DNA from: a virus
Strand: one strand, 5' to 3'
DNA: 46,871 nucleotides
IMG/VR virus record: IMGVR_UViG_3300048017_000061
Span: 1 to 46,871 of that record
Shown: one piece after another, positions 1,130-46,373 of the stretch
Position numbering within the stretch: the stretch's first letter is position 1
Layout: every line of letters starts with the position of its first letter
The notes under the pieces: generated by a model
Database searches by the model: none
What the model saw: the letters and a program-made list of their open reading frames with translations, nothing else
What the model was told of the DNA's origin: nothing
Program-made: the position numbers and the translations under genes

Positions 1130-1154
1130 AATAGGGGCTTCGGCCCCTATTTTT
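1128..1154 (+). terminator. Intrinsic terminator after the 413-1129 gene
   Basis: A perfect stem AAAATAGGGGC / GCCCCTATTTT with a TTCG tetraloop (1139-1142) is followed by a T run to 1154. It overlaps the stop codon of the upstream gene. Confidence 0.92.
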
Positions 1155-1155
1155 C

Positions 1156-1164
1156 TGCTAGAAT
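1156..1164 (+). promoter_or_regulatory. Possible extended -10 promoter for the HNH cassette
   Basis: TGCTAGAAT fits the extended -10 form TGnTAnAAT and lies directly behind the terminator. No convincing -35 is present. A start near 1171 would give a transcript that begins at the edge of the structured leader. Confidence 0.35.
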
Positions 1165-1189: not shown

Positions 1190-1324
1190 GTAAGAAGCGA
1201 AAAGTTCGGGTGACGGTTGAAGACTCTTTCTGCGGAGGCTCCAATCGGAGCCTAATCTCCACTGCAATAGTGGCGTCCCCGAAAGGCAATTCTTACCCTT
1301 TTGGAGTCTCCACAGAAAGAGTTT
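1190..1324 (+). promoter_or_regulatory. Highly structured leader RNA that can sequester the HNH ribosome site
   Basis: Complementary segments nest well. GTAAGAA (1190-1196) pairs with TTCTTAC (1290-1296). TTCGGG-t-GACG (1205-1215, one bulge) pairs with CGTCCCCGAA (1274-1283). Inside lie two hairpins: GGCTCC/GGAGCC with loop AATC (1237-1252) and CCACT/AGTGG with loop GCAAT (1259-1273). In addition ACTCTTTCTG (1223-1232) is exactly complementary to CAGAAAGAGT (1313-1322), which contains the ribosome-binding purines just before the ATG at 1326. That pairing would form a pseudoknot with the nested stems, or an alternative fold, and would shut off translation. Hairpins that hide the ribosome site are known for phage homing endonuclease genes; this exact architecture I do not recognise. 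Confidence 0.65.
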
Positions 1325-1325
1325 T

Positions 1326-3470: not shown

Positions 3471-4175
3471 ATGAGAGCCCCAGATACGCACGCAGTTAAG
3501 CAACTTGCTAAACCTGAAGTGGTTAGAACTCAAAACTCGAAACCACACAACCCGACAGCAGACATTGCTGTAGGCTCTGTATTTGGCAATTTGACTGTAA
3601 AGTCTAAAGAGGCGTATAGAGGAAATCACGCTATGTACGCTTGTATGTGCAATTGTGGAAATATCTCAACATACTACGGAAACAACCTGAAAAAGGGAAA
3701 CTCTAAGGGTTGTAGAGCCTGCTCAAACGAACTGAGGAAGCACCTTAAAAAGGGTGAAGGTGGAGAAGTTACGCATGGGATGTCAAAACATCCTATGTAT
3801 AACGCCTACAGGACAATGATTGCAAGATGCACAAAACAAAGTCACATACAGTACCATGACTATGGTGGAAGAGGTATCACAGTTTGTGATAGGTGGCTTG
3901 AAAGTTTTGAAAACTTTTTTGAAGATATGCGAGAAAGACCAGAGGGAATGTCACTTGATAGAGTAGACAATGAAAAAGGTTACTCTAAAGATAATTGTCG
4001 ATGGGCAGATGGTAGAACACAAGCAAGAAACAAATCAAACACACTGTATCTTGAGTACAAGGGTGAGAAGTTGCCGTTAGCTACCTTTGCAGAAAGGCAG
4101 GGTATGAATTACAACAAACTGGCAAAGCGAATAAAGCTTGGTTGGTCAATTGAGAAAGCTTTGGAGACACCATGA
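3471..4175 (+). CDS. HNH-type (homing) endonuclease, DRID subgroup
   Basis: 234 residues, AAGGA before the ATG. Architecture matches the 1326 and 45449 genes: FGNLTV, a Cys set (C58, C60, C62, C81, C84), YGGRGITVCDRW (131-142), SFENFFEDM, LDRVDNEKGY (162-171), DNCRW, QARNKSN and a C-terminal module ending GWSIEKALE. About 35 extra N-terminal residues precede the shared part. Arg replaces the usual first HNH His. Its last codon overlaps the next start (ATGA at 4172-4175). It therefore splits two nucleotide-pool genes while keeping the downstream gene translationally coupled, as expected for a mobile gene that has settled without harming its neighbours. Confidence 0.78.
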   Translation: MRAPDTHAVKQLAKPEVVRTQNSKPHNPTADIAVGSVFGNLTVKSKEAYRGNHAMYACMCNCGNISTYYGNNLKKGNSKGCRACSNELRKHLKKGEGGEVTHGMSKHPMYNAYRTMIARCTKQSHIQYHDYGGRGITVCDRWLESFENFFEDMRERPEGMSLDRVDNEKGYSKDNCRWADGRTQARNKSNTLYLEYKGEKLPLATFAERQGMNYNKLAKRIKLGWSIEKALETP

Positions 4176-4828: not shown

Positions 4829-7800
4829 ATGCGATTACTTTTGGATATGTCTTCAACAATGTGGACATGCCTTCTTGCTGGAAAAGATGCAGAAGGTGGC
4901 GAGTACAAAGACGAAGATGGTAAAACTCACTGGGTAAACACAGCAGCTTACGGCTATGAACACGCTGTAAACAGTATCAAAGCAGCACTTGACAAGTTCA
5001 CCTTGACACCTATTGACATGGTGATGGTTGTCGAAGGTATGAACGCCAAAGCACAACGCCTGATGATTAACCGTGAATACAAGTCAAAGCGTGGCAAGCG
5101 TCCTGTAGAAGCTTACACAGAGTTCAACGCGCTGAAAGCCAAGTTGATTGACGTGTTTACATCACTTGGCGCTATTGTGTTTCAACAAGACAACGTGGAA
5201 GCAGATGATGCGATTGCATGGCTTGCGTTGAATAGCAAAGAAGACGTTATTGTTCGCTCAAACGACAATGACTTGTCTGCTTTGTCTGGTACAAACGAGC
5301 ACGGTGCTCGCATTTTCACATACATCGGTTCAGAAGTCGATACTAATAAGTATGGAATGTTTCCACTAAAGTATGTGACACTTTACAAGTCTCTAGTTGG
5401 TGACTCTAGCGACACTATCAAAGGCATCAAAGGGTTTGGAGTAGAAACTTGGATCAAGTTTCACGCAGAGTTTGGTGAAGCTGGTATGGAAGAGTTGTGC
5501 AGACTTGCGCGACTTGGAACTCTTCAAGAGTTGGAAGAAGAAGCAGACCAGAACAAGCTTGTAAAGCAAATTTGGGATGGTAGAGCAGACTTCCTCAACT
5601 CATGGAAGCTTGCCTCATTGCATCCTGAATGGGTTGACACGATGCACAACGTGCCAGTCTGGAAGCCCGGAATGGTGGTCGCTGGTTGCGCCGATGAGCG
5701 ATTGAAACACTGGGCAGGCACAACGCTGCTGGTCACAGCAGACAACTGGGATGGCTTTCGAGCACGATTTGCCAAGGCTTTCAAGGCGCGTCCTTGGATC
5801 GCACTTGACATCGAAACAAGCACTCCAGAAGAGTCTGACGAGTGGTTGCAAGCGCAGAGCAATCCAGACGGTGTTGATGTCATCGGATCAGAACTCACTG
5901 GTATGAGCTTGACGTTTGGCTCTAACATGCAGCACACGGTCTACATCTCTGTTGACCACACAGAAACAAACAACGTAGCAAAGTCTGATGTAAGAGCTTT
6001 GCTTGAAGAAATTCAGGCTTCTGGTACTGAAATTGCTATTCAGAATGTGTCTTTTGAAGGCACTGTCCTGTTCAATGAGTTCGGCAAACACTGGCTTGAC
6101 AACGGCTACAACGGACTGCTTGCAAACTGGCTTGACACAAAGCTTGAAGCCTCGTATGTTGACGAGAATGACAGTCTTGGACTTAAAAAGCTGTCACGCA
6201 AGTGGCTTAATTACGATCAAGTTGAGTACAAAACTGTCACGACAATTGACGGTGTTCAGTACAAGATGAACGAGTTGAGTGCAAAGCATGTTCTGTCGTA
6301 CGCCTCAGATGACACTATCTGCACAGCAGCATTGCACAACTTCTTCAAGCTGTTTATGCAACTTGAAGGTACCTGGGATGTATATCGCACAGTAGAGATT
6401 GACTCTTCATACTTGCACACTCAAAGCTTCATACACGGCACAAAAATCAGTCTGCAAACTCTACAAGAACTGCGTGAGATTGATACCGAAGAGTACAACG
6501 AAGCATGGAAAGTTGTTCGCAACTACCTGATAGAAAAAGGTTGGGAAGGCACAGCAACACCAGTCTACAAGAATGAGTTGAAAGCTGCGGACATCAAAGA
6601 AGCTCATTTGATCGTCACAGGTTCAAAACTTGAAACACAGGTGCGAACACCTGCGAAGCTGCTTGCCATGATCGCAGACCATCTTCTGTATGATGGAGTT
6701 GAGAAAGCTATTGCTGGTAAGTTTGAATTGCTTAATGAACTCGTCGCAATGCACTTCAAGGGTGAGCCTGAGTTCAATATGGGCTCACCAACGCAGAAAG
6801 TAAAACTTCTGTACGATGTGATGAAGCTTCCGATCCGTGTTTACAACAAGCCTACAGACGCTGCAAAACAGCGTGGGGAGAAGCAAGGAAGTCCAAAGAC
6901 AGACAACCTTGCAATCATGTACGCTTTGCAGGACGCCAAAGAAGAAGAGTATGGTGTTCTTAATGCGATGCGAATCATGCAAATGGTTTCCACACGCAGA
7001 TCACTTTATTACGACACTTACGGTGGTTTTGTACACTGGAAAACTGGACGAGTGCACAGTTCACACAACCAGTGCGCTACGAATACACGTAGAGCCAGCA
7101 GCAGTGCGCCGAATGTGCAACAGGTTAGCAAGAACCAGAAGGTTGAAGGTTACTCCCCTCGTGTTCGGGAAGTCTACATTCCACACAAGAAGGGCGCTGT
7201 AATTGTCTCTATGGACTTTATGGCGCAAGAGTTGCGAGTTATTGCTGACTACAGTAAAGACCCAAACATGGTGTCTTGCTTTGTTGGTGACAACTTGCGA
7301 GACATGCACGCCATGACTGGTCTTGGAATCTGGAACGCTCGTAAATCCATGGATTGGAGTTATGAAGTTTTCGTTGCTGCTCTTGAAGACAAGAATAATC
7401 CGAACTATTCGGAAGTCAAAAAGATGCGAGGCCTAGGAAAGCAGACCAACTTTACGACCGAGTTCGGGGCTGCTGCTCCAAAACTTGCACAGACAATCAT
7501 GGTAACAGAAGAAGAAGCTCAAGTTTACATTGATGCTAAAGAAGCTGCGTTCCCTGTTGTCGGTGAGTGGAAAGAGACTGTAATTGCAGAAGCTAAACGG
7601 TGTGGCTTTGTCCGTACAAAGCTTGGAGGTAAGCGCCACTTGCGTGAAGCCTTGACATCAACAGATCGCTATATAGCCTCAAAAGCTGAGCGTCAAGCAG
7701 TCAACTTTAAGGTGCAAGGTTCCAGCGCAGAGATGACAAAGCTTGCAGAAGGTCGCATGTTCAAAGCAAATCTTGAACAACGTTTTGACTGTGAGATTAT

Positions 7801-14480: not shown

Positions 14481-14527
14481 AAGATTTGGAAAAGCTTTGA
14501 TGGCTTTTGGCAGAAGTTTTTTCACCT

Positions 14528-14579
14528 ACAAAACTCTAAAAGATGCCCCAACTACTTGGGGCGTCTTTTAGAGTTTTGT
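14528..14579 (-). terminator. Very strong, symmetrical terminator between tip gene and lysis cassette
   Basis: ACAAAACTCTAAAAGA (14528-14543) pairs with TCTTTTAGAGTTTTGT (14564-14579) and GCCCCAA with TTGGGGC, around a CTAC loop: a stem of 24 pairs with one T/G wobble. The A/T-rich base of the stem gives a T-rich 3' arm on either strand. It lies six bases beyond the end of the tail tip gene. Confidence 0.9.
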
Positions 14580-14585
14580 GTTCTA

Positions 14586-45448: not shown

Positions 45449-46117
45449 TCAAGGTCTGCTGTCAAAAGACTTAGATTTGCCCTGTAACTTCTTAGCGTAG
45501 GGCTTTTCAGTTGGAGTATTTAAAGCTCTTTCTACACTCCAACTACGCTGTATACGTAACTGAACACTGTTATAGTCAAGATTTAGTTCCTCGCACCATT
45601 CAATCATTGTTTGGCTCTTGCCTAGGTAATCAAGTACTTTATTTGATCTTCTGTTACGAGCTTGTTCTTCTGCTGTGGACCATTTACAGTTTTCAGGGCA
45701 GTAGTTACCGTTATTGTCAATTCTATCTATTGACATTCTTCCATTAGGTACTCCCATATCTTCTACAAAGTTTTCTAGTTCAAACCAACGATCACAAACT
45801 TGGACACCTCTTCCACCGTAGCGTGGATACTCTGGGTTGTTTCCGTTGTAACATCTGTTGTGCATACCACTCCAGATAGCGTACAACCTGTGAGTGAAAG
45901 ACTTATAAGTCAATTCTGATAAGTTTGTTTTGTGATTGACACATTTTTTTACAGGTCTTTCGAGAAGAGTTTTAATCTGTGAAGCTCTGAAAGTTGTATT
46001 TGCTTTACAACCACAGGTACAAATAGCTTTGTAAATAATCTCTTTTCGACTATCTACTCCAAGTTTTTCAGTGATTTGTAAACTTCCGTGTAAAATACCT
46101 ACGTAATTTTTAGCCAT
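45449..46117 (-). CDS. HNH-type (homing) endonuclease, DRID subgroup
   Basis: 222 residues from ATG 46117, preceded by GGAG; a longer open frame upstream is not supported by a ribosome site and runs into the intergenic region. Same family as the 1326 and 3471 genes: Cys set C33, C35, C37, C59; YGGRGVQVCDRW (100-111), LENFVEDMG, IDRIDNNGNY (130-139), ENCKW, EEQARNRRSN and a C-terminal WSVERALN module. Arg again replaces the first HNH His. It lies beside the terminase operon, where HNH proteins sometimes assist packaging, but the family suggests a mobile endonuclease. Confidence 0.8.
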   Translation of the reverse strand: MAKNYVGILHGSLQITEKLGVDSRKEIIYKAICTCGCKANTTFRASQIKTLLERPVKKCVNHKTNLSELTYKSFTHRLYAIWSGMHNRCYNGNNPEYPRYGGRGVQVCDRWFELENFVEDMGVPNGRMSIDRIDNNGNYCPENCKWSTAEEQARNRRSNKVLDYLGKSQTMIEWCEELNLDYNSVQLRIQRSWSVERALNTPTEKPYAKKLQGKSKSFDSRP

Positions 46118-46261: not shown

Positions 46262-46340
46262 TTGAAAACAAAAGTATACATGACTACTTTGGTTTCTCAT
46301 TCCAAAATGAGTACTTCTGTTTTCAAATAAATTTGAAAAC
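46262..46340. repeat. Three TTGAAAAC inverted repeats (operator-like)
   Basis: TTGAAAACAAAAGTAT (46262-46277) is inverted as GTACTTCTGTTTTCAA (46311-46326) with two mismatches. The second arm overlaps a near-perfect palindrome GTTTTCAAAT-aa-ATTTGAAAAC (46319-46340). A CTCATT/AATGAG hairpin (46296-46311) lies in the centre. Confidence 0.8.
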
Positions 46341-46373
46341 CCAGGTATTCAAAATCACTGTCTAATACATAAG

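Follow-up and report, generated by a model that had tools for sequence, protein, structure and literature searches.

What does an elaborately structured RNA do in front of a phage nuclease gene? In a viral record of 46,871 nucleotides (IMG/VR record IMGVR_UViG_3300048017_000061, analyzed at its full length and here referred to as the window), such a leader lies between a terminator at ~1130-1153 and the ATG of an HNH gene at 1326. A preliminary description of this leader noted four nested stems and a separate, exact 10-base complement covering the ribosome site of the gene. It took the two together to imply a pseudoknot or a two-state switch and suggested that the leader could belong to a new regulatory or catalytic RNA class. 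Here, we describe the folds that are available to the leader, the accessibility of the start codon, the genes around it, and the search for related RNAs (Table 1). We consider it probable, with some reserve, that the leader would act as a translational brake on a homing-type HNH endonuclease, placed behind a terminator and a probable promoter of its own.

Table 1. Features of the HNH leader and its surroundings (positions are those of the window unless a locus is named)
Feature	Position	Strand	Details and basis
Intrinsic terminator, after upstream gene	1130..1153	+	AAATAGGGGC-TTCG-GCCCCTATTTTT; by eye; equivalent at same place in related phage L082
Extended -10 box, probable HNH promoter	1156..1164	+	TGCTAGAAT; probable RNA start near 1171
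Nested domain (state B)	1190..1296	+	Stem list; minimum free energy (MFE) fold; shuffles with 5' arm fixed
P1	1190-1196/1290-1296	+	7 bp
P2	1205-1210/1278-1283 plus 1212-1215/1274-1277	+	10 bp, U1211 bulged
P3	1236-1242/1247-1253	+	7 bp, tetraloop AAUC
P4	1259-1264/1268-1273	+	6 bp including one G-U; alternatively 5 bp with pentaloop
5' arm of long hairpin (state A), anti-ribosome-site strand	1220..1244	+	24/25 positions pair with 1301-1325
3' arm of long hairpin	1301..1325	+	Covers ribosome site AGAAAGAG; last base directly precedes start codon
Weak Shine-Dalgarno (SD) of HNH gene	1314..1321	+	AGAAAGAG; sequence; anti-SD pairing only -2.4 kcal/mol
HNH endonuclease gene, 216 aa	1326..1976	+	phrog_374 HNH endonuclease, E 1.2e-61
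R1 members (separate leader RNA)	L083-L122, e.g., L108:1249-1307, L112:7358-7416; also L024, L039, L049, L058, L062, L069, L070, L073

A predicted long hairpin covers the ribosome site

The 10-base complement (1223-1232 with 1313-1322) is present and forms the core of a longer arm pair, 1220-1244 with 1301-1325. Of its 25 positions, 24 are paired (22 Watson-Crick and 2 G-U), with 13 pairs (1220-1232/1313-1325) and 11 pairs (1234-1244/1301-1311) on either side of one C.A mismatch, and the arms enclose a 56-nt loop. The MFE fold of 1190-1330 is this long hairpin (-49.5 kcal/mol; z, -3.29). When the whole 46.9-kb window was scanned for inverted repeats under one scoring scheme, the arm pair ranked second with a score of 42; the strongest repeat scored 48 (14527-14580), the next independent one after the arm pair scored 29, and the 99th percentile over all 160-nt windows was 27. 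The repeat at 14527-14580 has 25-bp arms and a 4-nt loop, lies just past the stop of a 1792-aa tail fiber gene on the minus strand, and looks like a very long terminator.

The calculated opening energy of the start at 1326 is 15.7 kcal/mol, the highest among 43 genes of the window (mean, 6.9; sd, 3.2). For its G+C content, a set of 700 gene starts taken from related loci would predict a value 7.1 kcal/mol lower (residual sd, 3.6). That this start is predicted to be the hardest to open of all 43 supports the earlier proposal that the leader hides the HNH ribosome site. With a ribosome site as weak as this one (-2.4 kcal/mol), low translation would need no hairpin. The window contains two further HNH genes, both with ordinary starts: one at 3471 (SD energy, -5.8; opening energy, 5.2) and one probably at ATG 46117, placed there by homology and preceded by AAGGAG. 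A stem at the start of the longest open reading frame of this third gene (46300) was set aside because homology puts the start at 46117. Upstream of the same gene, at 46262-46351, a segment, TTGAAAACAGAAGTACTCAT, has two alternative potential pairing partners, one upstream and one downstream of it. Across the 700 gene starts in related loci, the starts of HNH genes as a group were no more hidden than those of other genes.

A nested domain competes with the hairpin

All four nested stems of the preliminary description are present. The domain alone (1190-1300) folds with an MFE of -41.8 kcal/mol (z, -3.65), which none of 200 shuffles equaled; when the 5' arm was kept fixed and the remainder shuffled, none of 1,000 shuffles matched it. 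For the whole leader (1171-1330), z is -4.47. The genome generally folds better than its own shuffles (mean z, -0.75), and z reaches ≤-3.3 in 66 of its 1,558 141-nt windows (~4%). Because of this genome-wide folding bias, z by itself is weak evidence. The arm pair stands out as exceptional, and the nested domain, though strong, is not unique.

An overlap that the preliminary description had missed connects the two structures. The inner part of the 5' arm, 1234-1244, doubles as the 5' side of the hairpin at 1236-1253, which makes the long hairpin and the nested domain mutually exclusive. Their energies are similar (-45.3 with the nested domain enforced versus -49.5 for the long hairpin). In partition function calculations for an RNA ending at 1315, P2 has a probability of 0.96 and the arm pair one of 0.0, whereas the arm pair reaches 1.0 from an RNA end at 1321 onward, a sharp flip at base 1318-1321; at equilibrium, the full leader is predicted to be entirely “off.” The stem list, the folding energies, and the partition function thus agree with the earlier view that the structures cannot be drawn as one nested fold and imply either a pseudoknot or two states. 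The candidate pseudoknot strand is 1220-1232, the duplex of which with 1313-1325 has an energy of -17.6 in folding programs that leave pseudoknots themselves unscored. Such a pseudoknot could possibly retain the domain while still covering the ribosome site. An “on” state would require that 1220-1232 be held apart from the 3' arm.

By prediction, then, the leader has two exclusive folds, one of which covers the ribosome site, as a riboswitch would. P1-P4 might sense a ligand, protein, or ion and, when stabilized, keep 1220-1244 from the 3' arm so that the gene is on, with the long hairpin forming otherwise and turning it off. The similar energies of the exclusive folds, the sharp flip, and a domain whose stability greatly exceeds chance, also when the shared arm is kept constant, all fit such a two-state switch, but a full-leader equilibrium that is wholly “off” does not, and the case comes from a single sequence with no Rfam match and no conserved junction seen elsewhere (see below). 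We hold this reading to be plausible but unlikely, and we are a shade more doubtful of the specific version in which a riboswitch-like leader of a phage homing endonuclease would use P1-P4 as the sensor domain that decides if the anti-ribosome-site strand can block translation.

The arm pair might alternatively serve as a processing site. A duplex of two helical turns is a usual substrate of RNase III, and the 24-bp duplex present here has that length; cutting in the cell could alter the stability of the message or free the ribosome site. The duplex itself contains the ribosome site, however, which the cut would need to leave intact, and we consider this reading improbable.

Promoter, leader, and gene resemble a mobile insert

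Behind the terminator, the HNH gene has a probable promoter of its own at 1156-1164, as judged from the box found there. The sequence TGNTANAAT occurs five times in the window, counting both strands. The terminator is missing from the output of the terminator scan, probably because its stem extends into the T tract. In the promoter scan, no -35/-10 promoter-like pair was scored in 1000-1500, which leaves room for a phage-specific promoter.

These observations bear on a timing mechanism of the kind used by T4 I-TevI, where a late promoter yields transcripts without the 5' arm (PMC2988022). A late promoter within the window's hairpin would likewise produce short messages that lack the 5' arm and turn the gene on late only, and a possible extended -10 (4/6), TGCAATAGT, can be picked out by eye in the loop at 1263-1271. 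With no promoter-like pair scored and a better -10 box upstream at 1156, the message from which would retain the entire hairpin, we regard this timing mechanism as very unlikely here.

The gene that precedes the leader (413-1129) has no Pfam or PHROG match, and its product is, at a guess, a single-strand-binding type protein. Its sole relative found in IMG/VR, 60% identical, is in the related phage L082, which has the terminator but neither the leader nor an HNH gene at that place. No HNH gene of the same family occurs elsewhere in the 37-kb L082 record. Because L082 has the terminator only, the promoter, leader, and HNH gene look like a mobile, replaceable insert. L082 was the one relative recovered by searches for related phages with neighboring genes, and scans with DUF5856 and the polymerase found none.

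Search for relatives of the leader

No Rfam model, including those of group I introns, HEARO, riboswitches, and ribozymes, matched the window above the gathering threshold, and 1100-1400 gave only chance-level matches at an E value of ≤10. A BLASTN search of phage records with the leader as query returned, near the leader, matches to the terminator only. Searches of IMG/VR with the leader read as a minus-strand peptide and with the 16-mer GGTTGAAGACTCTTTC recovered no leader relative; the six hits all seemed to have unrelated sequence around the seed, and none was leader-like. A covariance model of the domain built from its single sequence (R2) matched only itself among 78 sources (417,730 bases). 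No conserved junction was seen elsewhere, and the viral contigs, phage records, and fetched loci searched yielded no homologous leader in which a ligand-binding core of the riboswitch kind could be compared. The suggestion of a new regulatory or catalytic RNA class, which the comparison with Rfam was meant to probe, is therefore unsupported.

Among HNH relatives, 26 of the 65 distinct ones start within 30 nt of an upstream open frame or overlap it. The preliminary description held that structure-free leaders before close homologues of the gene would speak against its reading. Homologous HNH genes mostly have no such leader, which counts against it, but the comparison is weak because the closest homologues found in viral contigs are only 40 to 46% identical to the window HNH protein, over most of its length. 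Short perfect hairpins that lie over the ribosome site of an HNH gene and end at the ATG were observed at L007:2340-2432, near 2519 in L025, and near 1501 in L128; the same solution thus recurs with unrelated sequences. L007 also has a TATAAT box immediately at its 5' arm; the transcript from that box could lack the arm, as in T4 I-TevI.

A leader for which conservation was not found, in a genome with a general folding bias, might also be chance or leftover intergenic structure without function. The arm pair, however, falls far outside the distribution of the window and is placed exactly up to the base before the AUG, and we give this reading little credence. An elaborate fold adjoining a nuclease gene might also suggest RNA catalysis or a guide-type RNA partnering the HNH protein, but we rejected both as scarcely credible, given that the Rfam models for ribozymes, group I introns, and HEARO gave no match and that RNA-guided HNH enzymes carry extra nuclease domains, for which a 216-aa phrog_374 HNH protein is too small.

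A separate leader RNA precedes other HNH genes

Ten of 80 HNH loci share a conserved leader RNA of ~58 nt (GGUGCUCCAGCGGGUUGCAGCCCCUGGAGCGUGACCAACUCA...UGAGCUGAUG) with two small hairpins directly before the HNH gene, here referred to as R1. A pattern built from the conserved leader of these ten loci matched 40 viral contigs, in every one of which the next gene was read as that of an HNH-type endonuclease, with its start 11 to 16 nt past the pattern; the R1 model comprises 26 distinct sequences from IMG/VR. Most of the downstream genes are BLASTP relatives of the window HNH gene. Six representatives were profiled (three PHROG 374, two NUMOD4-HNH_3, and one HNH_3), and the HNH genes that follow R1 belong to three PHROG families or more. 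In the 26 sequences, 95% of helix 1 is paired; compensatory changes occur at 5 of the 10 pairs of this helix, and one position shows four pair types. Over the whole structure, 49 cells were changed on both sides, versus 19.5 in shuffles (0/500). Rfam had no match to R1 in the eight member loci scanned. A search of 369 genomes from the class of Duganella gave two weak hits only, which were taken as chance, one lying inside coding sequence and the other having no HNH gene shown.

Like the window leader, R1 is a structured leader that often follows a terminator, with the HNH start abutting a stem, and its genes include phrog_374 members; a -10-like box lies upstream of R1 in the members read. R1 differs in its length of ~58 nt, its two small hairpins, and its conserved sequence. 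The window leader did not match the R1 covariance model, the only hit in the window being a 9.5-bit fragment at 5892-5909, and R1 is a find separate from the window leader. It is possibly a mobile promoter-plus-RNA cassette, and its presence before several HNH families suggests that such control cassettes travel with these genes.

Proposed action of the leader and comparison with known systems

We propose that ~1171-1325 is the 5' leader of a mobile, homing-type HNH endonuclease gene and acts as a translational brake. While the polymerase is still inside the leader, the nested domain P1-P4 would form; after synthesis of the 3' arm, this arm and 1220-1244 would pair, forming either a single long hairpin or a 13-bp pseudoknot in which the domain is retained. 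Either way, the ribosome site would be buried up to the base preceding the AUG, and little enzyme would be made per message, which we infer serves to keep a DNA-cutting enzyme low. The 24 of 25 paired arm positions, the opening energy, the partition function, the HNH identity of the gene, the comparison with L082, and the precedent of T4 and Aeh1 argue for this proposal. Against it stand the failure to find a homologous leader, and hence any covariation; the two other HNH genes of the same phage, which have no such leader; the lack of excess hidden starts among HNH genes as a group; the weakness of the ribosome site itself; and, in contrast to I-TevI, the failure of the promoter scan to reveal an internal promoter by which the ribosome site would be freed. 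The locus is a strong ribosome-site-hiding leader, most likely a brake of known kind plus an unusual competing domain.

Some translational riboswitches use a pseudoknot or an anti-SD helix. The window leader resembles translational riboswitches in having an upstream domain and a competing helix over the ribosome site, and it differs from them in having no Rfam match and no known ligand or conserved core. The closer likeness that the preliminary description drew, to T4 homing endonucleases, is borne out by the literature: in T4 I-TevI, -II, and -III, segB, and Aeh1 mobE, the last an HNH enzyme, a stable RNA structure lies over the ribosome site (PMC2988022; PMC3014915). The window leader is predicted to cover the ribosome site of a phage mobile endonuclease in the same manner. 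It differs from these hairpins in its 56-nt loop, in its competing multistem domain, in the seeming promoter of its own behind a terminator, and in having none placed, by the scan of 1000-1500, for late transcripts without the 5' arm; no sequence relation to them was seen. Mobile DNA-cutting enzymes must stay low to be tolerated, and T4 uses ribosome-site hairpins; the window leader suggests that an unrelated phage follows T4 in this logic by means of an RNA that is larger and possibly bistable.
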